In this document: positions 6,225 through 26,213 of the stretch, piece by piece
Layout of the letters: each line of letters begins with the position of its first letter
Position numbering within the stretch: position 1 is the first letter of the stretch
Source of the DNA: Chlorobiota bacterium
GTDB taxonomy: Bacteria > Bacteroidota > Ignavibacteria > Kapaibacteriales > NICIL-2
Length of the DNA stretch: 43,832 nt
NCBI GenBank assembly: GCA_026416585.1
Contig: JAOAEV010000016.1
Location: forward strand, 1 to 43,832
Reading direction: 5' to 3'
The notes under the pieces: generated by a model
Seen by the model: only the letters and a program-made list of their open reading frames with translations
Told to the model about the DNA's origin: nothing
The model's database searches: none
Translations under genes and position numbers: made by a program

Positions 6225-8642
6225 TTAAAAACGGTAGCGCACACCGAGTGCTAGCTGGAGGCGTGCAATGTACCAATCGGCATCGTTGAGCATACTGCCG
6301 AGTGGGTGGACGTATTGCGCAGTCAATACAAGACTCCATCGTGGTAGATGCGGCAGTGAAGCGACCAATCCAAATCCCCCAAACAGCTCGGGTACAGCCA
6401 CCTGTAGCGAGGACAGACGATACGTCTGCCGTCGAGCAATGTCGGGCGGCGTTGGTACAGGCTGTGGCAGAACAATGCGCCGCTCAATCGCTACCGAAGA
6501 ACTCAGCGGCAGCGCAGCTTGCACACCGCCAATAGCAGTTAGTTCATACACTTGGGTTCCCTTGATGCTGGAAAGAACGACAATTTCACTGCCGATACCG
6601 ATACCGAGCATCGGCGCAGTCGGTGTGAGGCGGTTGTCGAACTGAACCGGGATTACTGAATCGTTCGGCATGCGGAACAGCGATATTGTCGAATCCGGTG
6701 CTGATAGGCTCTGTCCGAATGGCTCGACCATTGTGCGAAGGAAAAAACGCACACGCTCGTTGAATGCGTAACCGATGCTGGTACCGATGCTGAGCGCAGA
6801 GCCGTAGGCGTTGCCTGTTGAGCGTGGGAATGTAAGAGTTCCAGTCGCATTGAATGCCGCAGTGTGGTACACTGCATTGACAATTCCATAGACGCTAAGG
6901 TGCCAGGGCAAGAATTCCGGACAGCGTTCCCCATCTGCGAACTCAAAGCGTCGGCGTTCTGGATTGTAGCAGTACACGTACTGAGCAATCCTTCGATTCC
7001 CCGCAGCATCAACGAAGGCGAGCGTAATATGTCCGTCCACTTGCGGATCCAGTGGATGGATGTTGAATTCCGTCTGTGGCTGACCGCGCTCCAGACGTGG
7101 TAGATATGCCCGAAGATTTACTGCTTCAAGTGGGACGATACTGTCGAGGCCACTGTCTGTTGGTCGGTCATCTCGTGCGATGACATGGAGTGCTTTTCCA
7201 CCCATCACCAGCTGGAATGTAGTTTGTGGGGGCTGTTGGTCGCGGAGGGTATCGAGTATAAAAAACGTTTGCCCTCCCATCGTGCCGTATGCATCATATG
7301 CATCAGTGCGATATCCGAAGCCATACGAGTATAGTCCAAACGGTTCGTCGGCGGTGATGGTGTGTGTACCAAAGTTCAGGCGCAGTTGTGCGATCGCATA
7401 GCTTGTGATTCCGATTCGCTCGAACTGTTCGCGTGTGATGGGTCGTCCGTCGAGCCGCAGACCGGAGAGCGCTTCTTCCCGTGCAACGACGTTGATGTAG
7501 TGGTCCCACGATCCTTGAACCGGTGTGATGATGCGGTAGCGGCGTGCGAACTGCTGCGTCGGCGAGATGAGAATCATCATCGGGTCGCCGATCTCGTCAC
7601 CATTGCCGTACCCTTGAGAAAATTGCGCGACAAGAATTGGCTTGTCGGCGGTAATCTGCATGTGATCAGTTGCGTTCGTTTCTTCGTAGTATTCGCCTGC
7701 ATCGAGCACAGCGATGAGCGTCTGGTTTTTGAATACTCGCGTGCGGTTCTGACTCGCCAAAATGCGCACAGTATATCGTGAACGTCCTTTGAGTTTGCCG
7801 ATGTAGTAATGTTTGCCCCATGTGTTCACCGGTGGAAGCTGTTCAACCAAATGATTACATGCTTTGACTCCCGGTGGTACGTACGCGCACGTATGCCCGC
7901 TGAACACCGCAATTGGCTTGGATGATCGAATACGTGTGCCGGTCAAATCGCCAGACCCAGTGGCAAAATATTGGGCGCGCACTTGGTACACCTGACCGCG
8001 ATCGAGCACAGTCGAATAGGCTTGCTGTGCTCCATGACCATCAGTGGTCGGGGTCGTCGGGAGGATCTCGACGCGTGTGTCATCCTCGGTAGCAACAATG
8101 GCAAAGATTGGCGTGAGAACGGCAGAGAGTTTGCTGTAGCACATAACGCGGTAGTCGGTGCCCAGAACATCGGTCGGTAGTGCGAGGTACGTATCTGTCG
8201 TTTGAATGCGACGATTGAGGGCATACACAGCAATCGGTGCAGAGCTTTGGATGTGCAGGGCACGCAGTTGTGGGCGCGGGAATGTATCCAATTCCGCTTC
8301 CGGTGTGATGCGAACGCTTCGCATTTCGCCAGCGGGTATCACTAAACGATGGCGAAAACTGAGCGAGGGGATTTCCATTGTAACCTGCGCATCAGTATCA
8401 GCCGTTACAAATACCTCTAAGAGCGCTGGCTCGTAGCTCCCTGGCTTGTTCGGGTCTTGTTCGCGAAAATTTTTCATGAAGCACAGCCAAAACTCTGTGC
8501 CGAGAGAGGTCAAGATGCGATAGCGAGCTGTTGAATCTTCCACATTTTGAGCAGGTATCCTCTGCACACAGACAAGCAGTGCGGCAGCAATGAGTACCAG
8601 CGGGGTGATCGGTCGTATGGCTCTCACTTGCCGATCATGCAT
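6225..8642 (-). CDS. Exported IgGFc-binding-like protein with C-terminal outer-membrane beta-barrel
   Basis: An 805-residue exported protein. The ATG at 8642 gives a good signal peptide (hydrophobic core PLVLIAAALLVCV, cleavage near IPAQ) and overlaps the upstream gene by 19 bases; the in-frame ATG at 8765 adds 41 unlikely residues. Residues ~40-440 resemble the IgGFc-binding N-terminal family (GTEFWLCFMKNF, APIAVYALNR, DTYLALPTDVLGTDYRVMCY, IVATEDDTRVEI, KPIAVFSGH, VEQLPPVNTWG). A middle Ig-like stretch follows. The last ~180 residues are glycine-rich alternating strands (LSIGTSIGYAF, MLGIGIGSEIVV, LQLALGVRYRF) ending in Phe, as expected of an outer-membrane barrel, and no T9SS tail is seen. 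So the recognition-like domain may be displayed by its own barrel. Its paralogue at 26214-29216 uses a T9SS tail instead. Confidence 0.75.
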   Translation of the reverse strand: MHDRQVRAIRPITPLVLIAAALLVCVQRIPAQNVEDSTARYRILTSLGTEFWLCFMKNFREQDPNKPGSYEPALLEVFVTADTDAQVTMEIPSLSFRHRLVIPAGEMRSVRITPEAELDTFPRPQLRALHIQSSAPIAVYALNRRIQTTDTYLALPTDVLGTDYRVMCYSKLSAVLTPIFAIVATEDDTRVEILPTTPTTDGHGAQQAYSTVLDRGQVYQVRAQYFATGSGDLTGTRIRSSKPIAVFSGHTCAYVPPGVKACNHLVEQLPPVNTWGKHYYIGKLKGRSRYTVRILASQNRTRVFKNQTLIAVLDAGEYYEETNATDHMQITADKPILVAQFSQGYGNGDEIGDPMMILISPTQQFARRYRIITPVQGSWDHYINVVAREEALSGLRLDGRPITREQFERIGITSYAIAQLRLNFGTHTITADEPFGLYSYGFGYRTDAYDAYGTMGGQTFFILDTLRDQQPPQTTFQLVMGGKALHVIARDDRPTDSGLDSIVPLEAVNLRAYLPRLERGQPQTEFNIHPLDPQVDGHITLAFVDAAGNRRIAQYVYCYNPERRRFEFADGERCPEFLPWHLSVYGIVNAVYHTAAFNATGTLTFPRSTGNAYGSALSIGTSIGYAFNERVRFFLRTMVEPFGQSLSAPDSTISLFRMPNDSVIPVQFDNRLTPTAPMLGIGIGSEIVVLSSIKGTQVYELTAIGGVQAALPLSSSVAIERRIVLPQPVPTPPDIARRQTYRLSSLQVAVPELFGGFGLVASLPHLPRWSLVLTAQYVHPLGSMLNDADWYIARLQLALGVRYRF

Positions 8643-9373
8643 GGTACAATCGACACATACTCGCCACGTCGCAAGCACAGGTAATAAAGACCTGCCGAGG
8701 TCGCCGTGCGATTGAACGACAGCTCGACGCTGTGGGTACCAGCAGGTAGTAGCCCCAAGCTCCACTGTGCTAATTCTCTGCCGACGGGATCATATAGCAC
8801 GACCACAGGAGTACTGCTATCCGCCAACCATAACGTAACGCGGAAGCGATCTCCCTCGACTGGGTGCGGTGCAATCGGACCGACAGCGGTGAGTGGTTTT
8901 ACCTCTGCCGTCGCTGCTGGTTTGAACACGAGGGAACCTCCGCTTGCTTGAACGGTGAGCGGTTGTCCATTCTGCCATACTGCAGTGGGTAAGATATGCG
9001 CCGGTGAAGTACCACTCCATAGAGCAGAACAGACCGCAACAAGCTCAATGCGGGATGTTGCCTGTGCACAAACCATACGTGCTGTAAGCCAACCTGTTTC
9101 TCCAAAACGAAGTTCATCCTCGATATTGAAGATGTGAATTTCAGCAGGGAACTTTGCCAAGATTGTTTCGATACGGAGCGCTGCACGTGGATACTCCATG
9201 CGCAATCCGATCGTGTCGCCTGTTGCCACTGGTGTTGAAATGACAATCGTCAGTGCGGCTGTTTCACCTCGATGGAGCACCGTATCAGGCAGCACAACTG
9301 TCACGCGCTGAGCGTGGAGATACACTGTTCCAGTTGCAAACAGTGCACAGCAGAGAAATGTGTGGAGTGTCAT
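8624..9373 (-). CDS. Small T9SS-type secreted protein
   Basis: A 249-residue exported protein. The ATG at 9373 starts directly at a signal peptide (MTLHTFLCCALFATGTVYLHAQ); the ATG at 9415 would add 14 residues in front of it. The mature part begins with a cohesin-like or Ig-like beta-domain (VLPDTVLHRGETAALTIVIS). The C-terminal ~85 residues look like a T9SS type A sorting domain: IAPHPVEGDRFRVTLWL (PHP replacing the usual PNP), VVVLYDPVGRELAQW, then SAGLYYLCLRRGEYVSIVP. Such tails direct proteins across the outer membrane and are usually removed on attachment. It overlaps the downstream IgGFc/barrel gene by 19 bases, so the two are probably co-translated and may act as surface partners. Binding target unknown. 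Confidence 0.7.
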   Translation of the reverse strand: MTLHTFLCCALFATGTVYLHAQRVTVVLPDTVLHRGETAALTIVISTPVATGDTIGLRMEYPRAALRIETILAKFPAEIHIFNIEDELRFGETGWLTARMVCAQATSRIELVAVCSALWSGTSPAHILPTAVWQNGQPLTVQASGGSLVFKPAATAEVKPLTAVGPIAPHPVEGDRFRVTLWLADSSTPVVVLYDPVGRELAQWSLGLLPAGTHSVELSFNRTATSAGLYYLCLRRGEYVSIVPCMIGK

Positions 9374-9582
9374 GTTCCGACGATGATAAACCGAAACAAA
9401 AATACGCCCGATCATTATCGTAAAACTGCAGCGTGCTTATTCGCACTTTCGCAGTGCGATCGGGTTCCGTTGGATGATTTCTGCAAAATGTGTACGGTGC
9501 ATTTATCACAAATGCAAAAAACTGTCCATAGAAAATGGCAATGTTCAATTCGAAGTTTGTGTTACCATCATTGAGTACTCGA
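9374..9582. promoter_or_regulatory. Divergent intergenic region with dyad symmetry
   Basis: This 209-base AT-richer stretch separates two divergent gene sets that encode exported proteins, so it must hold both promoters. It contains a perfect 7-bp inverted repeat with a 5-base loop at 9441-9459 (TCGCACT/AGTGCGA). A second pair of 7-base arms, at 9407-9413 (CCCGATC) and 9458-9464 (GATCGGG), abuts it. These could be an operator or an RNA hairpin. I could not place a convincing promoter consensus. Confidence 0.3.
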
Positions 9583-11202
9583 ATGCGAACGGTTCTTTTA
9601 TTCTGGTGGTTCACAATGAGCCTATCACCAGTATTGGCGCAGTGGATTCGGGTCAACGGCTCATTCGGTGCTTCGGCGGATGCCTACCGTGCGGTCGGTA
9701 ATACAGCACGGCTGCCGTCAGAGACGTATCGTGCGGTTGGACGTCTGAGTGTAGTGCTTGCCGACAATATCGAATTTCCCTTCGAGCTCTACCTCAACAG
9801 TGGTCAAGTTGGATTCCAGCAGCCATTCAATCAGTTCGGTGTCACGCCGCGGTTCGGGTGGCTACAACTATTTGGCGGGTGGTACTCGACGCGGGTGTCG
9901 GACTTCACTTTTGGGGATCTTCGCATCTTCGGGGGAGGGGTAGAGCTTACCCCAGGAGCATTTCGACTGGCGTTCCACTACGGTTATACCCGCCAGCCGC
10001 GCCAGCCAGATACAGCAGTTGCCTTTTGGGGTGAATACCGCCGGCGTGTTGTTATCGGCAGGCTCGGCTATGAATCTCAAGACGGCAGTTTCTTTACGAT
10101 TCAAGCAATGACTTCCCAGGACGAGCCTGGCTCGATTCAGCGAGATCATCTGACTTCCTCCCCCCAAGCCAACGCGGTGCTGTCGCTGGCAGGCGGAATT
10201 GCGGCATTCAGTGGTGCGGTGCGCCTACGGGGCGAAGTAGCGGCAGGACTATTTACAAACGACATCGGTGCCGGCGCGGATAGTGCACTGGCGACAAACA
10301 TCCCATCAGCGATGCAGCAGCTTGTACCGACGAATGCAACCTCAAATATCGACGGCGCCGGGCGGGTAAATCTGGTGATTTCTCCGAGTGCGGTATGGGG
10401 AATCACTCTCGATGGGCAATGGATTGGTCCTGGCTTTGTTACCCTTGGCTATGCACAATTGCTCAACGACCTGCTGGACGTGAGTGCATCGCCCTATGTG
10501 CGCTTTGCCGACGGACGAGTCTCGCTGCGGGCGACGTTCTCGCGCCGCGTGAATAATCTACGGCAGACGCGCATTGCTACCATCGAACGCTGGGTGGCGA
10601 ATAGTGGCATCAATTGGCAAATCAGCGACGCTCTCGGCATGGATCTCCAATACGGGCAATACACGATGATGTCTGACCACACAAACGACACACTCCGCGC
10701 CGATAATCGCATGCAGATGCTGACGCTGACGCCAAGCTGGCGCTTTGTCGCTGGTGGTAACGACCACTTCCTATCAGCGTCATTAAGCTACCAGAGCACT
10801 ACAGATAACAACATTGTTAGTGGACGCTATGGCTCAAACTCGATGATAAGCGCGACCCTGTCACATTCGACGCAGCTTCCCTCGAAGCTCGGTTTGAGTA
10901 CGTCGCTCAGCTATAACCACACGGAAACGTACCTGCAGAACATCCGTTTTGCCACGCTCAGCGAATCGCTCACCTATCCCTTTGCCGAGCGTTGGACTGC
11001 ACGTGGCACACTCGGATTCAACGCAACGAGTACGGCGCGTACAACGCTGCAATTGCTGCTCCGTGCTGCTGTGACGTATTCTCTTAGTGAATGGGGTAGC
11101 CTAACGTTACAGCTGATGAACAACACATTTGACCTGACGGCACAGCAAGGCAACCGGTATAGCGAACTATTCGGGAGTCTGCAGTACGCTGTCAGTTTTT
11201 GA
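9583..11202 (+). CDS. Predicted outer-membrane beta-barrel protein, first gene of the giant-protein cluster
   Basis: A 539-residue exported protein. The ATG at 9583 begins a signal peptide (MRTVLLFWWFTMSLSPVLAQ); the in-frame ATG at 9535 would put 16 extra residues in front. The mature chain is almost entirely short amphipathic strands with many aromatic and glycine residues, and ends in YAVSF, a typical barrel terminus. An early block (FNQFGVTPRFGWLQLFGGWY, then GVELTPGAFRLAFHYGYTR, about residues 80-140) recalls a family of Bacteroidota barrels of unknown function that I remember as lying next to very large exported proteins; this is recollection, not a search. Only 30 bases separate it from the giant gene, so they are probably one transcript. 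Possible roles are an anchor or secretion channel for the giant protein, or a porin. Confidence 0.65.
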   Translation: MRTVLLFWWFTMSLSPVLAQWIRVNGSFGASADAYRAVGNTARLPSETYRAVGRLSVVLADNIEFPFELYLNSGQVGFQQPFNQFGVTPRFGWLQLFGGWYSTRVSDFTFGDLRIFGGGVELTPGAFRLAFHYGYTRQPRQPDTAVAFWGEYRRRVVIGRLGYESQDGSFFTIQAMTSQDEPGSIQRDHLTSSPQANAVLSLAGGIAAFSGAVRLRGEVAAGLFTNDIGAGADSALATNIPSAMQQLVPTNATSNIDGAGRVNLVISPSAVWGITLDGQWIGPGFVTLGYAQLLNDLLDVSASPYVRFADGRVSLRATFSRRVNNLRQTRIATIERWVANSGINWQISDALGMDLQYGQYTMMSDHTNDTLRADNRMQMLTLTPSWRFVAGGNDHFLSASLSYQSTTDNNIVSGRYGSNSMISATLSHSTQLPSKLGLSTSLSYNHTETYLQNIRFATLSESLTYPFAERWTARGTLGFNATSTARTTLQLLLRAAVTYSLSEWGSLTLQLMNNTFDLTAQQGNRYSELFGSLQYAVSF

Positions 11203-11232
11203 GCAACATGTGCAACTGTATCTGGAGCACCA

Positions 11233-14200
11233 ATGAAAGCTCGATACATTTTTCTGGCACTAACGTGCTGTATAGGCTCGCTGATCGCTCAACCGATCAC
11301 GGTTTCAGTGCTTGTGCGCAATCCAGCACCAGTGTCGCTCCAGACATGGCGAACTGATCCGAGCATCGTTCGAGTTACGCTTACCAACACCGGCAGCAGT
11401 TTACGGCAGATAGTTATCGGCATCCTGCTCACAAATCGTACGACTGGGCAAACGGTGCGGACAGATAACATGCATCCCTGTATGCCACAGTTCCAACTTG
11501 CTCCCGGTGAGACTCGCCTGCTCGATGGCCCTGCATTGATATGCGAAAATGCACTTGTGATTGACCCAACGATTCGTACCTCGATCATTGCTGCTGGGGC
11601 AATACCGGAAGGAGACTACGAATTCTGCGTGACGGTGATTGATGCCACCGACCGCCGAACGGAATTAGCTACCACAGGGGTTCGCTGTGCAACAAGTCGT
11701 GTCATTTGGCCGGATCCTCCTGTGCTTATCCGACCACTTGCCGGCGATGCAGCACAGCGGTGTGATCAAGCAATACTGCTCCAGTGGCAGCCGTTGACAC
11801 CGACGCCTATAGGTGGTGTGCGCTACCGAATCCGTGCTGTGGGTATGTTCGAAGGTCAACTCCCCCGACAGGCGCTGGAGGCGGCGACTGCGACCGAGAC
11901 AATTGTTGACCAGGTCGTTTCGACGACCTCGTACACCATCGCGCCGAACACCCCGGTAATCCTGGACTTGGTGCAGCGCCGAGCGCCACGACTGGTTGGT
12001 ATTGCCTGGCAGGTCGAGGCCCAGGACGATGGAGGACGCTCAATCACCACGCGCGGTGGGACACGTGGGAAAAGCGACATCGGACAGTTCACGCTTACAT
12101 GCCCCGATGCCAGTTCGGCAGTATCGTGCAACGGACCGATGACACTGGAGGGGTACTATCCAACTGACCGCGATACCATCCCATGGGTGCCACCACAGCT
12201 TGTGGTGCAGTGGGGACCGTACTGCGACGATGTCCTGCGTATGCAGTTCACACTGACAGTGCATGACGAGAGCAGTGGTCGATCCTACAGAAACAGCAGA
12301 ACCCTTTCTTGGCCGCGTGGGCCAATCGATGGGCAGTCACTCACTGGTCAGGCAAATGCGCAGGAGCGTGCTCGTCTCGCAATCGTCAACTCGTTCGACG
12401 ACCGGGGCGAATTTGTCGAATGGAATAACCAGCTCCGCCGCGGTGGGACGTACCGCTGGAACGTCATGGCGACCTTCACTCGCCGCGAGGGACGCTCCGA
12501 ACAAACCTACACACCCTCTACTGCGGAACTTCGCCTCAATCTCGGGTTGCGTATGCCGACGGAGCCCAATCCCGCCAATGGTGCCACAGTGAGTACGCGC
12601 CGTGGACTTACCCTCCGTTGGATGATTCCACCACCAACAAACATTGTTCGGGAATACCTTGCTGATTTGATCAGCCTTCGGGGTACAAGTAGAGCGGGGA
12701 TGATGTTCGGTGCTGCCAGTGAAGCCATCCGTGTTGTTGTTGCCCGTGATTCGGCGTTCCGCACACTCGTTGGTAGCCGACTTCTCCGCTTTCCCGATAG
12801 CGGCACTTATCCAAGCTTCGATGATCGTGTCAATGAGCTGTTTGGGGCAAAGAGCGTCAGTTGGAGCGATGTAGAGCTTGCCGATGGTGAGTACTTTTGG
12901 CGCGTTGAATACTGCGAACCAACCGACACAAGCCAGGTGTACCGCCGTGGTCCGGTCTGGCGCTTTCGTGTCGGCAGTAGTGTTTCGGCGAGCGAATGCA
13001 TCCGCATGCGTGTCCACGCACCCGAACATCGTGCAACCGTGACGATGCCGAACAATGGGGGTGTCCGTTTTTCAATTGCCGTGGAGCCAGCAATTCGCCT
13101 CAGCGCCATCACACAGTGCCGCGTGCGTATCTGGCAAATGTCTCGTCCAGACGAGGATCCTGCGGTGGTGCGCTCCCGATCGCCATTGCTGAACGCCGCA
13201 ACGACTACCAGCGGTGGGAGATTGCTTCTGGCGGAACCTACCAGTGGCATCATTGAGCTTCGCTTCATCAATGTCGAGGGAGCGGCGCACACGTTTACCG
13301 CAACAAACGGGCAAACCTACCTGTGGGAATGCGAGCTCCAGTACAACGGCGCTCAGATACGCGCTGATGGTACTCCGTGCGAGGTCGGGCGCTCCGCGTG
13401 TGACGGTATCTTTACCTTTCGCGTCAGTGAGTGCAATAGTCCGTGTGAAGCACCTCTACCCTCGAACACGACGCCATATGCCTTGTCGCTTGGTGTGGGC
13501 GATGTCATTCGCATTGGGCACTTCGAAGCAGAATTGACGCGCGTTTCCGGGGCGCCCGAGAACCTCTCTGGTGAAGCACTTGTACGGCTTCCGTGGATGG
13601 GCATTCGTATTCGAACGAGTTTTTCGGGGATCGCGGTTAACACTGACCGGCAGGTCTATCGCGGGCGAATGGATGCGATGCAAGCGTCAGGTTCGGCATT
13701 GAGCCAGGAAGAGGCGAACCGGCTTAGCTCGACGCTTGGTCTATCGACAGACCAGCTTACTGCGATTGACGAGTTCATTACGTCGGGCAATCGTTTCGTA
13801 AGTGCGTTTGTGGCGAATCAACCCGTAGAGTTGCCTATCGGCTTCGACCGCACTATCGAGGGGTTCCGTATCGCTGTTGGTATTGTTGGAATGGTGTTCG
13901 AGCCAACCGGTGCGCGGCTCAATATCGTCCATGTACAGCCGATGCCGTGGCTTGGACCGAGACAATCGCTCGGATTTGGGGTGCGCAATATCTGTTTTTC
14001 TCCGCACGGGCTCGGGCGCTCACTGGACATCTATCTGGCAAGCGATGTAGGCTATCGTGCCAGTGACGACGCGTGGGCGATCAATTTCAAAGCTCCACAA
14101 GCAGCCCGTGCTGGCATGCCTGCTGATTCGGGAACGTACGTGCGGATCACGTGTGGCGGCTTCGAGTTCCTGCGCATTGCTGCAGAGGTGGAATTTCCAC

Positions 14201-17200
14201 GCTCGTGGATGGTGCCAGCACCGGATGATGGCACGAGCGAGGTTATTCTTCGTTTTACAACACAAGTTCGTCGCAGCGGCGATTTCCTTGCAACGGCGAC
14301 GATGACACCATTCAGCCCATGCGGAGCGTCGGGTTTTGTGTTCCACTGTGAGAACGTCGCAGTGGATCTTTCCGACCGCGAAAATCCCATAGGTATCGCC
14401 TTCCCGAGTGGCTATAGAGGCGAAACCAGCGAACGCTGGCGAGGCTTCTATCTAGGGCGGCTTTTCATGCAATTCCCCGAAGGAATTCGTGGCTGGAGTA
14501 GTACCGAACCACCACGTGTGGAGATCACCAACGTTATCATTGATGAGCGCACCGGACTGAACTTCCGTGTGATGGCTGCAAATATCCTCCGCTATCCCAA
14601 TGCGAATCTTGGCGGGTGGGGAGCAAGTCTCGATACCATCGGTTTAGAGGTAGTCAACTCCTCGTTGCAGCGAGGATGGATGAGTGGAAAGATTCAAGTA
14701 CCGATCAGCGATTCGGCGCTCACGTACTCGGCAATACTCCGTGATAGTGTGGGTGGCATTCGCTTTGAGTTCAGTATCGTGCCACGAAGCGCAATCAATG
14801 TGCCGCTGTGGGCTGCAACTCTCCAGATTGATCCGACCTCGTGGATCCGACTCGATGCAGGACGGGGCGTCAGGGGCGGATTTCGTGCACAGGCAAACTT
14901 TGATGGTCGGATTAGCTTCGGAGGAACAAGTAGTGTTCCCCTCAATCTCGGTGGCATTCGTTTCGAGGGATTGCTTGTTCGAACAGATTCTGCACCATAC
15001 ATCAGTGTTCGCAGTTGGTCGTTTGCGTCCCCTCCGCATAGCATCCTGGGTCCGCCCGAGCCGGAACCTCCGTCCGATGTCGGTTCCGGTGGTACCAGGT
15101 CCGCAGGAGGATTTCCAATCAGCATCCGCGAGTTCAGTCTGGTCAGCGGTAGCCGACGCGAGGGTCCCGGGGTTGGTGTCCGCATTGGCGTAGATGTCAA
15201 TCTACAGTCAGGTGGTAGCGGCATCAGTGGAGGAACGACGATTTCTATTTGGGGAGCATTCCGAACCGGCAGTAGCGGACCGCCCTCGTTTGTGTTTAGT
15301 GGAATTGACCTCGACTCAATCGGGGTCCGTGCAGATATGGGGGCGGTTTTGATCCAGGGCTTTGTCCGGTTCTACAATGGGGATCCTACCTATGGTAATG
15401 GCTTTCGCGGTGCAGTTCAGGCAAACTTTGTCCGGATGGTTGAAATTTCAGCGACCGTCCAGTTCGGTACGGTGCGGGATTTCCGCTACTGGTATGTAGA
15501 TGCTCGTGCCCTTATCACCAGTGGAATCCCGGTTTTCAGTGGCGTTGGTATCTATGGCTTTGGTGGGGGTGCGTGGTATAATATGCGCCGGGTCAGTGAC
15601 CCTGCAAGTGTGACGCCAACCCGGAGCGGTAGTACAGCGGTGACCGCAAGCACCGGAGCACCTGGTGTGACGAACTCCGGTGCACGTTATGAGCCGTACT
15701 ATTCTTCTTCTGGCGAGACATTCGGCTTCTATGCGCTCGTTACGTTGGGGACTCACCCAGAACCGAAAGCATTCAATTGCGATGTTCGCCTGGAGGTGAG
15801 TTTCGTCGGTGGCGGTATCCATGAAATCCGTCTCCAGGGTGATGCGTGGATGATGGCAGAACTAACAGAGCGAGGGAGCGCCCGGGTCAGAGCATCTGCT
15901 GTCATTTCGTATACGTTTCCCACGCGCACGTTTTATGGTGAATTTGGGATCACCGCAAACCTGGAAGCTGTGCAGGCAACAGGTCGTATGGTTCTGCTGT
16001 TTTCGCCAGCGACGTGGCACGTCAAAATCGGTGATCCAGAAGGGCAGCGGATCGAGGTTGCGGTACTCAACAACCTTATTCAGTTGCGAGCATACTTTAT
16101 AGCGGGGATGAATCTGCCATCGATGCCGCCTATTCCACCAGAAGTGTTGGAGTTAACTGGCCCGATACCTGCGCCAGTGCGTCCAGAATCGATAGGTCGC
16201 GGTAATGGCTTTGCATTTGGTGCTGATGCGCGTTTTGCACCACCAGAGTTGCGTTTTCTGATCTTCTATGCCTCAATGCGTTTCCTCGTTGGATTCGATA
16301 TGGCGCTGCTCAATTATGGTGCAACGGCGCAGTGTAGCGATGGGCGTCCAATGGGTGCCAATGGATGGTATGCCACGGGTCAGATGTATGCACGATTGGA
16401 TGCCTCTATTGGCTTGCATGTGGATTTATTTTTCGTGTCAGGCAAATTTGAAATCCTTGGCTTGCGTGTTGGTGCTGCACTCCAGGCGGGACTGCCAAAC
16501 CCGACCTGGTTAGCAGGTGCGTGTGGTGGTCGCTACAGCATTCTCGGAGGGTTGATCAGTGGTTATTGCAACTTTCAATTTACACTTGGTGAGCGCTGCA
16601 CGCCTCCAACTGAATCAGCTCTGGCGAATATCGAGATAATTAGTGACATTGCACCAGCGAATGGTTCGACCGACGTCCCCATCTTTGCTGAACCGACAGC
16701 GTTTTTCAACCTGCAGCCCGACCGTCCGTTTGCCCTCGAGGAGCTACAGAACGATGGGGCGACCGTGACAAAAATTTTCCGTATTCGGGTTGGAAGCTTT
16801 ACACTCCGCAAGCAGAACAACCGAGGGGATTTCACCGTCTCCGTTCCCGTCTCGCAACCTGTGGACCGTTCAACGCGGGAGGCACCAGCTCGCGCAATTG
16901 TGCCTGCTGAGCCGTTGGAAGGGCTGACACGATACCGCGTGGAAGTTACAGCATACGGACAAGAATACACCGGTACAGGTTTCGTTCGACAACCAAGCGA
17001 GAGCATTGAACAAGCAAGCGAACGTGCTGCCCGTGAGTTGGCAGGAGTAACTCTGTGGCGTGACATTCGCTACCGAAGCGGTCCACGCAGTGGACAGCGG
17101 GTCGAGCAGACAGTGGGTAGCACGTTTACAACGCAGCCACGTCCTGATACAATTGTTCCCCAGATGGTGTACATGGCGTATCCGCGACCATCACAGCGAT

Positions 17201-18510
17201 TCTATCTGCAGGGCGAGTGTTCGGGCGGTGAAATCCTGCTCCTGAATGATTTCAGCTATTTATTTGCTCCTTCGCCGAATCGGGATACAGTGAGACTCTA
17301 CCAGGTACGCTTTATCCGTCTCAGCACAAGCGAACGGACGGAAGTACCGCTATCGTACACACGCTATACCCGCCCGTACTACAATGGTGAACGCCGTACC
17401 GGACAGCAATGGGGAGGACGCATTGGCTTTTCGATTCCACGACTTGCCAACGATGCCATTTATGCTGTGCAGGTCATCCGTCGTGATTCGGTTGTACGGC
17501 GCTCCAGCAGCAATCGGTTCGAACTGGCTCTCAGTGGTATGCCAGAAGCACGAAGCGGCGTTATCTCGCAGCAACTTCTCGACCACTTGGGAAGCACGCT
17601 GGTGCTACGCCGCATCAGGCGTCCCTCAGGATTTGATGTCGGTCGAGCGGTGGCAAGCAACGAGAAACTTCTCTATGTGTACTACTTTCGTACAAGCCGC
17701 TATGACCAGCTCGCGGATAAGGTGCGAGATCTCTCCACCCAACGAACTGATTCAATGAACACCATCGCTCTGATCCTCCCTGTGATTGGATTGGTGCCAT
17801 CAGTATCATCGCCAGAAGGTTTTGATCCACACGATCTGCAGTGGCAGAGTATTACAGCGTCCCCGAATGGAGTGGCTTCGTATGAGTACGAGGTTCCGCC
17901 GCTTATTTCAACCAACGGCTGGGTGCGGAGCGATCGCTGGCATAGCCAGTATGCAAATGCCATATATGAGGATGAAAGCTGGGTGGCGAGTTTACCAGCA
18001 AGCAGCACACGCAGACCTCCGACACCTCGGGGCGGTCGAACATGGTTTAGCCATGCTGTCAGTGAGGGAAATAGGATGTTTTCTGCCGTACAAACAAGTC
18101 ATCAGACACTTTCTGACCATGAAATTGGTGCAGCAACTGGCGATCCGTCGTATGTAATGGTTGCCAAGTTACTGCGCCAGGCGTCATTCAGAGTCGATGA
18201 ATCACGCATTAGCCAAACGTGGAGGATACCAATCGCCGATGATATTCGCCTTACCCGGTTCGTTTACGACCAGCCGACCTGGGTTGCACTCGATGTATCC
18301 AGACTTGCCACGTGGGCGGCAGGACTGGTTTCCACGTGGTGTGGAAGTGGTGATGTGGGCTATGATCAAGTAACGTGCGAGAGACTTCGGCGCATTGCTG
18401 CACGGCGGTTTGTGTTTCCGTATCGAGGCGATTACACGACCGTGTGGTTGTATTCTTGGTGCCAAGACCCCGACCGTCCGGTTACGTATCAATTTCGTTT
18501 CCGGTACTAA
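11233..18510 (+). CDS. Giant exported multidomain protein (2425 residues), function unknown
   Basis: The start ATG at 11233 has GGAG at 11224-11227 and a clear signal peptide (MKARYIFLALTCCIGSLIAQ). Residues ~20-160 form an Ig-like domain ending in GDYEFCVTVIDATD. Residues ~165-740 hold about four fibronectin/Ig-like modules with recurrent P-x-G openings and L-x-W strands (LLQWQP, LVVQWGPY, LTLRWMIPPP), with several Cys. Residues ~745-1790 are a long glycine- and beta-rich region with repeated alternating-strand segments (for example FSGVGIYGFGGGAWYNM) and a proline-rich joint MPPIPPEVLELTG. Residues ~1795-1925 resemble an SbsA-like Ig domain (IAPANGSTDVPIFAEPTAFF). The final ~450 residues are unrecognised. 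No T9SS tail, lipobox or LPxTG is visible, so export beyond the periplasm would need another route, perhaps the upstream barrel. It is followed after 13 bases by the FN3 gene. Confidence 0.8.
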   Translation: MKARYIFLALTCCIGSLIAQPITVSVLVRNPAPVSLQTWRTDPSIVRVTLTNTGSSLRQIVIGILLTNRTTGQTVRTDNMHPCMPQFQLAPGETRLLDGPALICENALVIDPTIRTSIIAAGAIPEGDYEFCVTVIDATDRRTELATTGVRCATSRVIWPDPPVLIRPLAGDAAQRCDQAILLQWQPLTPTPIGGVRYRIRAVGMFEGQLPRQALEAATATETIVDQVVSTTSYTIAPNTPVILDLVQRRAPRLVGIAWQVEAQDDGGRSITTRGGTRGKSDIGQFTLTCPDASSAVSCNGPMTLEGYYPTDRDTIPWVPPQLVVQWGPYCDDVLRMQFTLTVHDESSGRSYRNSRTLSWPRGPIDGQSLTGQANAQERARLAIVNSFDDRGEFVEWNNQLRRGGTYRWNVMATFTRREGRSEQTYTPSTAELRLNLGLRMPTEPNPANGATVSTRRGLTLRWMIPPPTNIVREYLADLISLRGTSRAGMMFGAASEAIRVVVARDSAFRTLVGSRLLRFPDSGTYPSFDDRVNELFGAKSVSWSDVELADGEYFWRVEYCEPTDTSQVYRRGPVWRFRVGSSVSASECIRMRVHAPEHRATVTMPNNGGVRFSIAVEPAIRLSAITQCRVRIWQMSRPDEDPAVVRSRSPLLNAATTTSGGRLLLAEPTSGIIELRFINVEGAAHTFTATNGQTYLWECELQYNGAQIRADGTPCEVGRSACDGIFTFRVSECNSPCEAPLPSNTTPYALSLGVGDVIRIGHFEAELTRVSGAPENLSGEALVRLPWMGIRIRTSFSGIAVNTDRQVYRGRMDAMQASGSALSQEEANRLSSTLGLSTDQLTAIDEFITSGNRFVSAFVANQPVELPIGFDRTIEGFRIAVGIVGMVFEPTGARLNIVHVQPMPWLGPRQSLGFGVRNICFSPHGLGRSLDIYLASDVGYRASDDAWAINFKAPQAARAGMPADSGTYVRITCGGFEFLRIAAEVEFPRSWMVPAPDDGTSEVILRFTTQVRRSGDFLATATMTPFSPCGASGFVFHCENVAVDLSDRENPIGIAFPSGYRGETSERWRGFYLGRLFMQFPEGIRGWSSTEPPRVEITNVIIDERTGLNFRVMAANILRYPNANLGGWGASLDTIGLEVVNSSLQRGWMSGKIQVPISDSALTYSAILRDSVGGIRFEFSIVPRSAINVPLWAATLQIDPTSWIRLDAGRGVRGGFRAQANFDGRISFGGTSSVPLNLGGIRFEGLLVRTDSAPYISVRSWSFASPPHSILGPPEPEPPSDVGSGGTRSAGGFPISIREFSLVSGSRREGPGVGVRIGVDVNLQSGGSGISGGTTISIWGAFRTGSSGPPSFVFSGIDLDSIGVRADMGAVLIQGFVRFYNGDPTYGNGFRGAVQANFVRMVEISATVQFGTVRDFRYWYVDARALITSGIPVFSGVGIYGFGGGAWYNMRRVSDPASVTPTRSGSTAVTASTGAPGVTNSGARYEPYYSSSGETFGFYALVTLGTHPEPKAFNCDVRLEVSFVGGGIHEIRLQGDAWMMAELTERGSARVRASAVISYTFPTRTFYGEFGITANLEAVQATGRMVLLFSPATWHVKIGDPEGQRIEVAVLNNLIQLRAYFIAGMNLPSMPPIPPEVLELTGPIPAPVRPESIGRGNGFAFGADARFAPPELRFLIFYASMRFLVGFDMALLNYGATAQCSDGRPMGANGWYATGQMYARLDASIGLHVDLFFVSGKFEILGLRVGAALQAGLPNPTWLAGACGGRYSILGGLISGYCNFQFTLGERCTPPTESALANIEIISDIAPANGSTDVPIFAEPTAFFNLQPDRPFALEELQNDGATVTKIFRIRVGSFTLRKQNNRGDFTVSVPVSQPVDRSTREAPARAIVPAEPLEGLTRYRVEVTAYGQEYTGTGFVRQPSESIEQASERAARELAGVTLWRDIRYRSGPRSGQRVEQTVGSTFTTQPRPDTIVPQMVYMAYPRPSQRFYLQGECSGGEILLLNDFSYLFAPSPNRDTVRLYQVRFIRLSTSERTEVPLSYTRYTRPYYNGERRTGQQWGGRIGFSIPRLANDAIYAVQVIRRDSVVRRSSSNRFELALSGMPEARSGVISQQLLDHLGSTLVLRRIRRPSGFDVGRAVASNEKLLYVYYFRTSRYDQLADKVRDLSTQRTDSMNTIALILPVIGLVPSVSSPEGFDPHDLQWQSITASPNGVASYEYEVPPLISTNGWVRSDRWHSQYANAIYEDESWVASLPASSTRRPPTPRGGRTWFSHAVSEGNRMFSAVQTSHQTLSDHEIGAATGDPSYVMVAKLLRQASFRVDESRISQTWRIPIADDIRLTRFVYDQPTWVALDVSRLATWAAGLVSTWCGSGDVGYDQVTCERLRRIAARRFVFPYRGDYTTVWLYSWCQDPDRPVTYQFRFRY

Positions 18511-18523
18511 TGGAGGACAGAAC

Positions 18524-20629
18524 ATGCTTCGAATGGTGGTAGTGCTGGGTGCTGCATTTTCGGCAGTGCTTGCGCAGCAGCAAACGACCAGTAGCGACAC
18601 AACAGACCCAACACTTGCAGCCTATCGCGAGTTGTTAGTGCCGTACTTGCGCCTGCTGGTGCAGTCCTACGGTGATTCGGTAGTGCTGCGGTGGGCACCG
18701 TCGAATGCACCGGCGTGGCGTGTCTATAACCGCATCGGCTACATCGTCGAGCGCGCATTGCTTGATACAACCGACAGCGGTCCGCTCCGCTACGAACGTC
18801 TGACGTCTCAACCCCTGCGGCCGTGGACGTTAGAGGAGTGGAAACAGCGGAGCCGTCCGGATCAGCAGTTCGCCGCAATTGCGGTGCAGTGCCTCTACGG
18901 GGCGTTGTCCATCCCGCAGCCGAATACCATTCCGAGCATGCTCGATGCGGCGACGGAATTGGAAAATCGCTTCGGCTTTGCGCTCTTTGCTGCCGATTGC
19001 GATGCCCATACAGCAAACGGTTTAGGACTGCGGCTGGTGGATCGGAACGTGCAGCTCGGTCAGGTTTGGGTGTACCGGGTTTTTCCCGCGAGGCTTGATT
19101 CGGTGTTTCTGCTGGATACGGTGTACTTGGTTGCGCACGTGGACCCCTACCGACCGTGGCCGCCAGTCTTGGACCTGGTGGCCGACGGACACGATCGTTT
19201 CGTGCACCTTCAGTGGAAAAATTTCCCAACGGGTGGGTACACAGGATTCAACGTCTATCGGACTGATCCGAACGGGCGCCGCATAAAGCTCAACAGCACT
19301 CCGATTGTGCCTGCGACCCCGCGCGGATGGTCACGCCGCATTGAACCGTGGTTTGAGGATACAACTGCCCAATGGGGTATCGTGTACACCTACGAGGTGC
19401 GCGGTATCTCGCCGTTCGCCGAAGAAGGTGAGCCAGCAACGATCCGCGCTAAACTTCGCGACCGCACACCACCGCCGATGCCGCGAACGCAAAAGCCCAT
19501 TATCTACGGCATGACAATGGTGCGGCTACAGTGGGATATCGCCGATGTTCCAGACATCATGGGGTTTTCCGTGATGAAAAGCGATAAGCCCGATCGCGAT
19601 TGGCGTGCTCTGCACACCGAACTCCTTCCACCGTCACAGCGTGCCTTTTTGGACACGCTTGCCGATCCAGACCTGCCGTTCTACGCTATCATTGCCGTTG
19701 ATACGGCGGGTAATTCCAGCGACTACCTACCGCTCTACGTAGACATCCACGATACTATTCCACCGGCCCCGCCGACGGGAGTTGTGGGCGCGATAGATAC
19801 CAACGGTATTGTGCGTCTGGAATGGCGCTTGGGGACAGAACGTGATTTGTTGGGCTACCGTGTGCTATGGGCAAACGACACCACGCACGAGTTTACGCAG
19901 CGCACTAACCTGGTCTGGCAGGACACGGTTTTCTACGACACGGTTGCGATCAACACGCTCACCGAGTACATATACTACCGCGTGGTGGCAGTAGATAATC
20001 GCTATTTCCACTCGGTTCCATCGTCGATTGTTGCGGTGCGTCGTCCGGACGTAGTGCCGCCAGTAGCACCGATTTTCACCGACGTTCGCACGTACGAGGA
20101 TCGAGTCGTTCTGACGTGGAACCCGTCGAGCAGTCTCGATGTGAGCCAGCAGATCCTCTACCGCCGCGCTGAAAGCGACACGAGCTGGACGGTGCGAATG
20201 CAGCTACCGGCAACAGCATGGCAGTTTACAGACACCGCTGTCGTTCCACGCGTGCGCTATAGCTACACGCTCGACGCGGTTGACCACAGCGGGTTACATT
20301 CGGAGCGGGCGTTGCCAGTCACTGCACGACCCTATGGCTCGGCTGAGCATGCACCAGTGCAGAGCATACGTGCGCGCTACGATAGCACAAGCAGAACGGT
20401 TATTCTCGAGTGGCTCTACCCACAGCCGCCGGTGGAGCGATACTGGTTTGCAATCTATCGTGCAGTGGATAACTATCCGCTGCAGATATATGAATCGGTC
20501 GAACCGACGATTACACGATTCGTTGATCGCCGCCTTGTCGGGCGTGGACAATATCGATATGCCGTGCGGGTTGTAACACCGACGGCGCAATCGCCGCTCT
20601 CGGATGAAATCATCGTGGATGTGCAGTAG
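18524..20629 (+). CDS. Exported protein with five fibronectin type III-like modules
   Basis: A 701-residue exported protein. The ATG at 18524 follows GGAGG at 18512-18516 and begins a signal peptide (MLRMVVVLGAAFSAVLAQ); the open frame from 18395 only extends into the giant gene. After a ~200-residue N-terminal domain come five FN3-like modules starting near residues 210, 320, 413, 511 and 608. Each opens with a proline-rich linker and has the L-x-W strand and a later Y-x-V/Y-x-I strand (FVHLQWKNF, MVRLQWDI, IVRLEWRL, VVLTWNPS, TVILEWLY). FN3 arrays serve as protein-binding or spacer rods at surfaces. It ends with the last module and no T9SS tail. Thirteen bases from the giant gene, so most likely a partner of the giant protein or the barrel. 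Confidence 0.8.
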   Translation: MLRMVVVLGAAFSAVLAQQQTTSSDTTDPTLAAYRELLVPYLRLLVQSYGDSVVLRWAPSNAPAWRVYNRIGYIVERALLDTTDSGPLRYERLTSQPLRPWTLEEWKQRSRPDQQFAAIAVQCLYGALSIPQPNTIPSMLDAATELENRFGFALFAADCDAHTANGLGLRLVDRNVQLGQVWVYRVFPARLDSVFLLDTVYLVAHVDPYRPWPPVLDLVADGHDRFVHLQWKNFPTGGYTGFNVYRTDPNGRRIKLNSTPIVPATPRGWSRRIEPWFEDTTAQWGIVYTYEVRGISPFAEEGEPATIRAKLRDRTPPPMPRTQKPIIYGMTMVRLQWDIADVPDIMGFSVMKSDKPDRDWRALHTELLPPSQRAFLDTLADPDLPFYAIIAVDTAGNSSDYLPLYVDIHDTIPPAPPTGVVGAIDTNGIVRLEWRLGTERDLLGYRVLWANDTTHEFTQRTNLVWQDTVFYDTVAINTLTEYIYYRVVAVDNRYFHSVPSSIVAVRRPDVVPPVAPIFTDVRTYEDRVVLTWNPSSSLDVSQQILYRRAESDTSWTVRMQLPATAWQFTDTAVVPRVRYSYTLDAVDHSGLHSERALPVTARPYGSAEHAPVQSIRARYDSTSRTVILEWLYPQPPVERYWFAIYRAVDNYPLQIYESVEPTITRFVDRRLVGRGQYRYAVRVVTPTAQSPLSDEIIVDVQ

Positions 20630-21030: not shown

Positions 21031-21105
21031 TACCACCCCGAAACATACGTGAGGGAGTTTCGCATTCAGTTTGTGTGTGGTTGTTTCACAACGTGCGTTT
21101 TTACC

Positions 21106-23973
21106 ATGTTCCTAAGGTTTGTCGTGTGTGTGGTCCTTGCTTGTGCTGTAGTCGTTAGTGCTGAACAGCCAGGCAATATCAGTGGAAAAGTTCGCGAAGC
21201 ATCCAGCGGAGAGCCGTTGCGCGGCGCGACTATCATCGTCGAGGGGACAAAAAAAGGTGCAATAACCGATCCCAAAGGCTCGTTCACAATCAAGAACCTC
21301 CCTGCTGGTACCTATACACTTCTTGTCCGTTATGTCGGCTACGAAACCAAACGGATCAGTGGTATCACTGTCGAAGCGGGAAAAACTGCAAACGTAGCAG
21401 TTACGCTTGATCGAGATCGTGAGCTACGGGCGCGAGATGTTGTCGTTGAAACGCGGCGCACGACCGAAACCCAGGCTGCTCTCTTGGCACAACGAAAAAA
21501 TAGTGCACTGGTATCCGATGGTGTTAGCACCGAGGAAATCAAAAAAATGCCTGATGCTGACGCTGGACAAGCGCTCCGCCGTGTTCCAGGAGTCACGCTT
21601 GCCGGTGATAAGTATATCGTCGTTCGCGGCACAAGCGATCGTTACAACAACGTCACACTCGACGGGGTACCGCTGACCTCGACCGAGCCGGATAAAAAAG
21701 CGTTCACCTACGATCTTTTCCCCAGCGACTTACTCGAAAGCGCAACGATTGCAAAGACATTCACACCAGATCTGCCGGGCAACTTCACTGGTGGCTTGGT
21801 GCAACTGGCAACAGTCGAATTTCCCTCCCAGCGGATGCTTAAGGCGAGTATTTCGTCGTCAGTCAACGACAATGCGTTCATGCAACCTAATCGCTTCATT
21901 AGTCCGACAGGCGGACGCTGGGACTGGCTGGGATTCGACGACGGCACACGTTCGAGATTGCCCAACGGCATGCCATCCGACCGTCGCCAGATGAGTGAGC
22001 TGCTGAGCGCAGTGCGTAATCCGTATGACACGACCGGTGCGCGTGAGCGCTGGACGGAACTTGCTCGCTCGTTCAATAACAAAAACTGGCAACCATATCG
22101 GCGAACCCTTGTATCGCCAAATAGCTCCCTGTCGCTTGCATATTCGGATGTGGTGTCGCTGTTCGGGAGTGACTTTGGCATTGCGGCGAGCCTGGTGTAC
22201 TCGAATTCGTGGAGTGTTTCGACGATTGAACGGAACGGAATTCTTGCTGATCGATCACTGTGGTTCCGCACTGGTGGGTATAATCCAACACGGACAACGA
22301 ACCTTGGTGGAATGCTCAACTTCGCTTGGCGCGCCAACGAATACAGCACCATTGCTCTCCGGACGGTCTATAGCCACTCTGCCGACGAAGACGTGGTGGT
22401 ACTCAACGGACAAGACTACGTACGCATCTTCGACACCAAGCAAGTTTCGATGCAGTACGTTGAAAAATCACTCGTGACGTCGGTGCTTGCGGGTACGCAC
22501 ACGCTGCCAATGCTGGGGAATGCATCCCTCGAATGGAAGGTCGGCTATTCACAGTCGAATCGCAATGAGCCGGATTTTCGTCGCTTTCGTTTTGCGCGTC
22601 AAACACCCCACGACGATGCGTACATCGAACCGTACACATCCGACATCATTGCATTTACGCCGCTGGCGCAGGGCGACGGCGTTCGAGCTGGACGCTTCTT
22701 TTCGAACCTTGATGATCGGTCATATACGGGTGGATTCGATCTGAAGCTCCCTGTTGGTGATGTGACACTGAAGACAGGTGTGTACACCGAACAACGTCAA
22801 CGCACGTTTCGAGCGCGGTCGTTTACCTACGTGCCGGGTCCTGAATTCTCGCTTGACTACAGTGTTTTCACACTACCGGACTCGGTGCAGTGGGCGGATC
22901 CATCGCGCATTTTTCAGCCTGAGAATCTTGGTCCGCACGGCATAGGGATTTCCGAAGATTCCCGCCTTGCTGATGCCTATGACGCCAGTGAACGGCTCTA
23001 TGCCGGCTATGCAATGGCAGATTGGTCGGTCGGTGCAGTCCTTGGCGTGCCACTGCGAATTATCGGTGGTGTGCGATATGAGGACAATCGGCAACAGCTA
23101 TCGAGCTTCGACTTGAGCGATCGTTCTGTGTCAGTTGATTTGCTCACGCGTGATCTATTGCCAGCGCTGTCGGTGGTATTGCAACTGACCCCGACGATGA
23201 ATCTACGGCTGGCGGCTTCACAGACGCTGGCACGTCCGGCGCTGCGCGAGTTCGCGCCATTTGCATTCTACGATTTTTCGACTCAATCACAAGTGATGGG
23301 CAACCCCAATTTGACACGTGCTCTTATCACAAATGCGGACATTCGGTGGGAGTGGTTCCTTGCACCAGGCGAAGTGATTTCGGTTGGTGCATTTACCAAG
23401 CGATTCCTGCACGCGATCGAGGAGACGATTTATCTTGAGCAGCAAGAAATCGCACGGACCTACCGGAATGCCGAGGGACCAGCGACTAACTACGGAGCGG
23501 AGATCGAGCTTCGCAAACGACTCGATATGCTTGGAGCATGGGGCGAGAACGTGATGGTTTCTGCTAATTACGCACGAATCTTCTCGGAGATTGCCGTTGC
23601 ACAGGGCGGACAAATTGACCGACGTCCTATGTGGGGACAGTCACCCTATACGCTCAATCTCGTTGCATCAGCAGCGATACCGGAGTGGAACGCAACTATC
23701 AGCGTTGGTTATAACGTATTTGGTCGGCGTATTGTACTTGTCGGCTTGCGTAATGCATACACGTTCCCTGATCCACATACCTATGAACTTCCGCGTGATG
23801 TTGTGGACGTGACCGTAACAAAGCGCTTCGATGCAGTGGAATTGCGGCTGTCGCTCCGTGATCTGCTCAACCAGCCATTGCGTTGGGAGCAAGGCGGAAC
23901 GGTAGTGCAATCAACGATTCGTGGACGTTCGATTGGTCTTGGGATAAGCTATCGGCTCGCGAACGAGCAATGA
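21106..23973 (+). CDS. TonB-dependent outer-membrane receptor
   Basis: A 955-residue receptor. The ATG at 21106 starts a signal peptide (MFLRFVVCVVLACAVVVSAEQ); the GTG at 21049 would add 19 residues in front. Residues ~25-105 are a carboxypeptidase-like regulatory domain (GNISGKVREASSGEPLRGAT, LPAGTYTLLVRYVGYE), common in Bacteroidota receptors. The plug domain follows (ADAGQALRRVPGVTLAGDKY, VVRGTSDRYNNVTLDGVPL, then DLLESATIAKTFTPDLPGNF), and then a large barrel with repeated aromatic strands ending GLGISYRLANEQ. Energised by TonB-ExbBD, such receptors import scarce ligands. There is no SusD partner; instead the next gene, 25 bases on, encodes a T9SS beta-helix protein. The upstream Pho-box-like repeat suggests a phosphate-related ligand. 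Confidence 0.93.
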   Translation: MFLRFVVCVVLACAVVVSAEQPGNISGKVREASSGEPLRGATIIVEGTKKGAITDPKGSFTIKNLPAGTYTLLVRYVGYETKRISGITVEAGKTANVAVTLDRDRELRARDVVVETRRTTETQAALLAQRKNSALVSDGVSTEEIKKMPDADAGQALRRVPGVTLAGDKYIVVRGTSDRYNNVTLDGVPLTSTEPDKKAFTYDLFPSDLLESATIAKTFTPDLPGNFTGGLVQLATVEFPSQRMLKASISSSVNDNAFMQPNRFISPTGGRWDWLGFDDGTRSRLPNGMPSDRRQMSELLSAVRNPYDTTGARERWTELARSFNNKNWQPYRRTLVSPNSSLSLAYSDVVSLFGSDFGIAASLVYSNSWSVSTIERNGILADRSLWFRTGGYNPTRTTNLGGMLNFAWRANEYSTIALRTVYSHSADEDVVVLNGQDYVRIFDTKQVSMQYVEKSLVTSVLAGTHTLPMLGNASLEWKVGYSQSNRNEPDFRRFRFARQTPHDDAYIEPYTSDIIAFTPLAQGDGVRAGRFFSNLDDRSYTGGFDLKLPVGDVTLKTGVYTEQRQRTFRARSFTYVPGPEFSLDYSVFTLPDSVQWADPSRIFQPENLGPHGIGISEDSRLADAYDASERLYAGYAMADWSVGAVLGVPLRIIGGVRYEDNRQQLSSFDLSDRSVSVDLLTRDLLPALSVVLQLTPTMNLRLAASQTLARPALREFAPFAFYDFSTQSQVMGNPNLTRALITNADIRWEWFLAPGEVISVGAFTKRFLHAIEETIYLEQQEIARTYRNAEGPATNYGAEIELRKRLDMLGAWGENVMVSANYARIFSEIAVAQGGQIDRRPMWGQSPYTLNLVASAAIPEWNATISVGYNVFGRRIVLVGLRNAYTFPDPHTYELPRDVVDVTVTKRFDAVELRLSLRDLLNQPLRWEQGGTVVQSTIRGRSIGLGISYRLANEQ

Positions 23974-23998
23974 TGTTTCACTATACTCAAATTTTGCG

Positions 23999-26123: not shown

Positions 26124-26213
26124 TGCGTCCTTGTGCACTGAAACGAAATGTTCTCCGTTTGTGTTCTTGCGCCGTACTTTCGAATAAAACGCTCACCTGC
26201 GGTGGAGGCGGCA

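Follow-up and report, generated by a model that had tools for sequence, protein, structure and literature searches.

A large unannotated outer-membrane barrel as a candidate partner of TANFOR-like giant proteins in Bacteroidota

TANFOR (TIGR02542) has been described as the N-terminal domain of a class of polymorphic toxins of Bacteroidetes, among whose members are an antibacterial DNase and further toxins (Jana, Salomon and Bosis 2020; PMC7073777). How these proteins leave the cell has been an open question since 2020, with the type IX secretion system (T9SS) as the published guess and the recognition element unnamed; the portions of that study drawn on here report FN3, SprB-repeat and T9SS-tail domains as enriched near TANFOR genes and mention no barrel. 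Among the known T9SS carriers, SprF is both the anchor of SprB and a carrier in its export, PorP is able to bind a type B substrate, and a single SprF-like carrier can handle several orphan substrates (PMC12635249, PMC9143113, PMC12618676). Here we analyse a three-gene cassette in a stretch of 43,832 nucleotides of a Chlorobiota bacterium (contig JAOAEV010000016.1, hereafter the window), which encodes an outer-membrane barrel, a giant exported protein and an FN3-array protein. Comparative data name a specific partner for TANFOR proteins, namely this unannotated barrel, and we give an even chance to the proposal that it is their dedicated outer-membrane partner, on which they dock and which carries and anchors them for surface display. 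The barrel matches no domain model, which is why an enrichment analysis of conserved domains could not see it, and its link to TANFOR appears to be new within the openly searchable literature, subscription papers and preprints lying outside it.

The window belongs to a draft genome (G000) of 2.06 Mb and 97.6% completeness on the Kapabacteria/Chlorobiota side of Bacteroidota, and the closest barrels are those of metagenome-assembled genomes labelled Chlorobiota SKW43 (81%) and Candidatus Kapabacteria KatS3mg039 (71%). All three genes lie on the plus strand in the order barrel, giant and FN3 protein, with intergenic gaps of 30 and 13 bases. The barrel is encoded by an open reading frame (ORF) of 555 codons (9535..11202), and its product is probably 539 residues long from an in-frame ATG at 9583, which yields a better signal peptide (MRTVLLFWWFTMSLSPVLA-Q). 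The giant (11233..18510) has 2425 residues. The FN3-array protein (18524..20629) has 701 residues and a conserved N-terminal module of its own; its ORF opens with a TTG at 18395, and the likely start is the ATG at 18524, with the signal peptide MLRMVVVLGAAFSAVLA-Q. A Sec signal peptide followed by Gln is found in all three proteins, and neither a consensus lipobox nor, by a tail model search, a T9SS tail was found in any of them. The tail search works, because the model PF18962 matches the product of the neighbouring gene 23999-26020 (at 25775-25984). In all these respects, an earlier sequence-only reading of the locus, which had described closely spaced plus-strand genes with signal peptides and without the tail carried by a neighbour, was borne out. 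The three genes are conserved far above chance level, and no Pfam or NCBIfam family was reached by the barrel or the giant.

Homologues of these genes, whose adjacency the sequence-only reading had regarded as decisive, prove to be regular neighbours. When 84,980 species genomes were scanned for the barrel, 54 loci were found, ranging from Chlorobiota to Cytophagales, Flavobacteriales and Sphingobacteriales, and in 43 of 53 loci (window included) a same-strand gene with a giant-type domain adjoins the barrel, mostly within 100 bases. An FN3 gene is also present in 37 of those 43 loci, and the gene order is variable, the barrel lying 5' of the giant in 33 and the giant 5' of the barrel in 10. 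Several of the ten loci without an adjoining giant-type gene stop at a contig edge. The co-occurrence was surveyed in 394 sampled genomes of the phylum with profiles built from 44 barrels (A1) and 32 TANFOR-like N-termini (A5); the latter was used because TIGR02542 is too narrow as a probe, finding 9 of the 394 genomes and passing its own cut-off in none. TANFOR-like domains were detected in 67 genomes, and 66 of these have the barrel (Fisher P = 4e-55, with barrels counted at E<=1e-30, which covers 87/394 genomes and leaves out a distant subfamily of 800-930 residues). The only genome with TANFOR and without a barrel (G310) is fragmented, and its TANFOR contig is just 4.6 kb long. A barrel is found within 20 kb of 76 of the 100 TANFOR-like domains, in all 76 cases on the same strand. 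To allow for relatedness, genomes were also compared within eight genera in which presence varies: 22 genomes have both, 24 have neither and no genome has one without the other (product P = 6e-10). Strong barrels without a TANFOR profile match tell a similar story: a giant of ~2000-3300 residues, or a fragment of one truncated at a contig end, adjoins them in 18 of 19 inspected loci, and many of these giants have the same kind of N-terminus.

The two components are even found in one polypeptide. At seven loci (L089, L090, L092, L093, L094, L095 and L102), ORFs of 860-1016 residues encode a signal peptide, a TANFOR-like domain, an Ig-like stretch and the barrel, with TANFOR always first; at L090 and L102 the fusion gene is accompanied by an FN3 gene and by the gene for a further TANFOR giant. 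These fusions suggest a physical partnership between TANFOR and the barrel. Outer-membrane barrels normally have their termini on the periplasmic side, and TANFOR, being N-terminal in the fusions, should therefore sit in the periplasm or in the barrel lumen. Judged from sequence comparison, the partnership is strongly supported. A solute porin that shares the neighbourhood merely through common regulation could be imagined, since generic barrel folds occur among the structural matches and a few barrels have no adjoining giant, as in KatS3mg039 (L002), where the barrel adjoins a TonB-receptor gene and the giant and FN3 genes are missing at the syntenic place. However, another TANFOR-FN3 set lies elsewhere in that genome, and TANFOR-like proteins were found elsewhere in all eight genomes tested for apparently orphan barrels, KatS3mg039 among them. 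Together with the fusions and the concordant presence and absence within genera, this makes the porin explanation highly improbable. The window genome itself encodes three TANFOR-like proteins and a single barrel; two of the three proteins are encoded on other contigs and have no barrel of their own. The second (C64, L105:2888-6639 (-)) has 930 residues and is encoded beside an FN3 gene of 320 residues and a T9SS-tailed gene of 463 residues; the third (C115, L106:295-2391 (-)) has ~700 residues and lies beside a T9SS-tailed gene. In this genome, several TANFOR proteins apparently share one barrel.

The giant appears to be modular. Profiles from four segments showed that these behave independently of each other: a TANFOR-like N-terminal domain (11254..11682, residues 8-150), Ig/FN3-like modules (11710..13437, residues 160-735), a glycine-rich all-beta mid region (13435..16632, residues 735-1800) and a conserved C-terminal region (16630..18507, residues 1800-2425). 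Residues 1-150 are the most widely spread, being found at the N-termini of giants in Pedobacter, Sphingobacterium, Flavobacteriales and Cytophagales, while the mid and C-terminal regions are common to a subset of relatives only; at L032 and L046 the TANFOR module (~475 residues) and a protein made of the mid and C-terminal parts (~1535 residues) are encoded by separate consecutive genes. TIGR02542 gave no match to the window giant at E<=0.1. It matches relatives at L034 (E 6e-4), L030 (3e-6) and L042 (2e-8), weakly, in register and below the 67-bit cut-off, and a profile of eight window-type giants finds the N-termini of the same relatives in register (9e-12, 6e-8 and 2e-6, respectively). TANFOR-like N-termini have in common the motif EG.Y and a near-invariant P ahead of it. 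On these sequence comparisons, the N-terminal domain of the window giant is homologous to TANFOR via intermediates. The Ig/FN3 modules proposed in the sequence-only reading are upheld in part: the repeat pattern is there, and Pfam fn3 matches the corresponding region of one relative's giant, but it matches none of the window proteins, so that the label "FN3 modules" is to be read as resting on the repeats and the relatives; the count of five modules in the FN3-array protein is that of the sequence-only reading. The ~1000-residue glycine-rich beta region was recovered as residues 735-1800, which are predicted to be all-beta (model pLDDT 77, pTM 0.43). Its structure matches are weak (LptD, ApoB and porins at TM ~0.1; ApoB Z 14.6, rmsd 9.5) and would indicate a long antiparallel sheet and nothing beyond. 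DUF6603, considered as a candidate for this region, had no Pfam match and was dropped.

In several respects the giant resembles the TANFOR polymorphic toxins (PMC7073777): a Sec signal, a TANFOR-like domain, giant size, FN3 modules, a T9SS host, and FN3 and T9SS-tail genes nearby. Two giants beside the barrel family also end in recognisable toxin domains. At L042 the TANFOR module leads into an ADP-ribosyltransferase toxin domain, and an EndoU nuclease was found at 1 of 33 giant C-termini. In contrast to those toxins, the window giant is linked to TIGR02542 through intermediates only, and its C-terminal body, instead of being polymorphic, is conserved in eight relatives. Its C-terminus matches no Pfam or NCBIfam domain, and neither a toxin domain nor an immunity gene was seen for it; a toxin reading of the window giant was ruled out, given this conserved and domain-free C-terminus. 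Because the segments behave independently and the C-termini differ, TANFOR looks like a common delivery part and the remainder of the giant like cargo, which in the window is a conserved, non-toxin body, probably structural or adhesive. These C-termini also bear on the possibility that the giant is kept in the periplasm as a long scaffold beneath the outer membrane, with the barrel as its membrane anchor. A Sec signal without T9SS tail or lipobox would fit such a scaffold, and the TANFOR-barrel fusions are compatible with a periplasmic domain; however, the C-terminal toxins of TANFOR relatives would be useless there, as is likewise argued in PMC7073777. Of the two alternatives left by the sequence-only reading, periplasm-facing giants or a barrel that takes part in their export or anchoring, the former is therefore unlikely, and co-occurrence, adjacency and fusions give strong support to the latter. 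We infer export or anchoring by the barrel from these patterns.

The outer-membrane barrel recognised in the sequence-only reading is supported by an AlphaFold2 model of the protein alone, with a mean pLDDT of 87.5 and a pTM of 0.74. The model lists 25 strands, so that a closed barrel would have 24-26. A known porin family, which would have offered another explanation, was not recovered: the sole family match, DUF2490, stays below its cut-off, no family is above its own, no Pfam usher model matches, and no sequence relative was found in the PDB at E<=1. The predicted strand number exceeds that of porins or TonB receptors, and raises the possibility that the barrel itself is an usher-like, T9SS-independent pore that lets the body of the giant through, with TANFOR left behind as a plug or anchor, as in N-terminally anchored (intimin-type) secretion. 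The first eight Foldseek matches were 24-strand PapC/FimD ushers, and VIA-align placed the 26-strand MtrB first (Z 19.1, 441 residues). A loop, FQQPFNQF (9814..9837, residues 78-85 from ATG 9583), lies between predicted strands 3 and 4; it is invariant in 44/44 barrels and of low confidence in the model, and it is a candidate plug or docking loop. In several relatives ~100 residues are inserted after strand 4, where there could be a plug. The order of domains in the fusions, which leads one to expect TANFOR in the periplasm or lumen, and the absence of T9SS signals from the giants would also suit a pore. The resemblance to chaperone-usher systems comprises a barrel of ~24 strands, Ig-fold substrates and a possible plug. 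However, there is no sequence relationship or usher family match, no pilin or PapD-like chaperone was recognised, and the fold likeness is weak (TM 0.25-0.46) and common to many barrels, ushers reaching Z ~15-16 (rmsd 4.4-6.6) among or tied with generic porins; these comparisons support a large barrel and no more. No energy source or gating is known for such a pore, and SprA, which an independent pore would not need, is always present in barrel genomes. We therefore regard the pore as rather unlikely.

As to the T9SS, G000 has SprA (E 1e-213) and PorV-family proteins, and SprA is present in 135/135 barrel genomes. PF11751 (PorP/SprF) was found neither in G000 nor in five other genomes of its lineage/class and two more distant ones, and the same search returned 5-21 copies in three further genomes. 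None of 33 giant C-termini carries a type A or B signal (PF18962, TIGR04183, TIGR04131 or CHU_C), so another recognition element is needed. Delivery of the giant probably depends on SprA, the basis being correlation only. In the arrangement that we favour, the giant would cross the inner membrane by Sec, for which the signal peptide is seen in the sequence; its TANFOR domain would dock with the barrel, either at its periplasmic face or inside its lumen, as fusions, adjacency and co-occurrence suggest; and the barrel, as carrier and anchor, would place the Ig/FN3-like, beta-rich body on the cell surface. The FN3 protein may be co-exported or act as an assembly partner, and where a relative ends in a toxin, display or delivery of that toxin would fall to the same platform. 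Such an arrangement would be like SprB/SprF, in which a giant is likewise encoded beside an outer-membrane barrel, with cognate pairing, one barrel for several substrates and a T9SS host (PMC9143113, PMC12618676, PMC12635249), but the docking domain would be N-terminal, in place of a C-terminal signal, and the barrel is unrelated to SprF and much larger. The barrel does not match PF11751, which rules out PorP/SprF membership, and it has ~540 residues instead of ~300; as it contains no cysteine, there is no SprF-like cysteine tail. Unlike SprB, the giant lacks a type B C-terminal signal, and its widely shared part is N-terminal.

Several points weigh against the proposal of a docking, carrier and anchor barrel. 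The missing cysteine tail and fold matches to generic large barrels are among them, and surface display of the giant is a presumption of the proposal. PorP/SprF carriers recognise C-terminal, not N-terminal, domains. The SprA-barrel correlation is weak once phylogeny is taken into account, because only ~6 of 171 sampled genera are without SprA. The eight genera of the within-genus test were chosen by eye from listed genomes with a genus label shown; at the thresholds used, the omitted genera that have the distant barrel subfamily only (e.g. g26), or whose giants have diverged too far to match the TANFOR profile (e.g. g83 and g111), would look discordant. If the partnership is true, the signal read by such a carrier or pore would be N-terminal instead of C-terminal, in lineages where SprA and PorV-family proteins are present and no PorP/SprF is detectable. 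A bolder version, about which we are doubtful, is a new export route of Bacteroidota, broader in the phylum than PorP/SprF, in which an oversized plugged barrel reads the N-terminal TANFOR domain, passes a giant or toxin body without C-terminal T9SS signal and keeps TANFOR as anchor. The TANFOR-like nature of the giant, the variable gene order, the apparent service of one barrel to several TANFOR proteins and the T9SS correlation all go beyond the sequence-only reading.

Some further observations concern the surroundings of the barrel genes. The cassette is flanked on both sides by genes for mutually related proteins (window 6225-8765 (-) and 26148-29216 (+)), the first of which has an IgGFc-binding domain (Pfam E 8e-81). 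Window 21049-26020 (+) encodes a TonB-dependent receptor with a carboxypeptidase-regulatory domain and, 25 bases downstream, the T9SS-tailed gene; a TonB receptor/T9SS-tailed gene pair also follows the barrel directly at L002. Two Ignavibacteria-type barrels without a giant (L005:2926-6280 and L006:3119-6210) share the same neighbours, genes of ~210, 300 and 430 residues on the opposite strand, which form a conserved alternative barrel context. At six loci (L112, L115, L117, L119, L124 and L126) a gene of 740-930 residues, serine/threonine-kinase-like by eye, lies near the barrel, with the motif DWKKLSRIFD.VL.LP in several of them. Finally, the distant barrels of 800-930 residues (E 1e-10 to 1e-24) form a separate subfamily with an N-terminal Ig-like part, and four of them (L129:7843-10242, L130:7542-10340, L131:8250-10991 and L135:8380-10785) are directly followed by a protein of 730-750 residues that is CHASE2-like by eye, possibly a sensing counterpart within the same barrel family.

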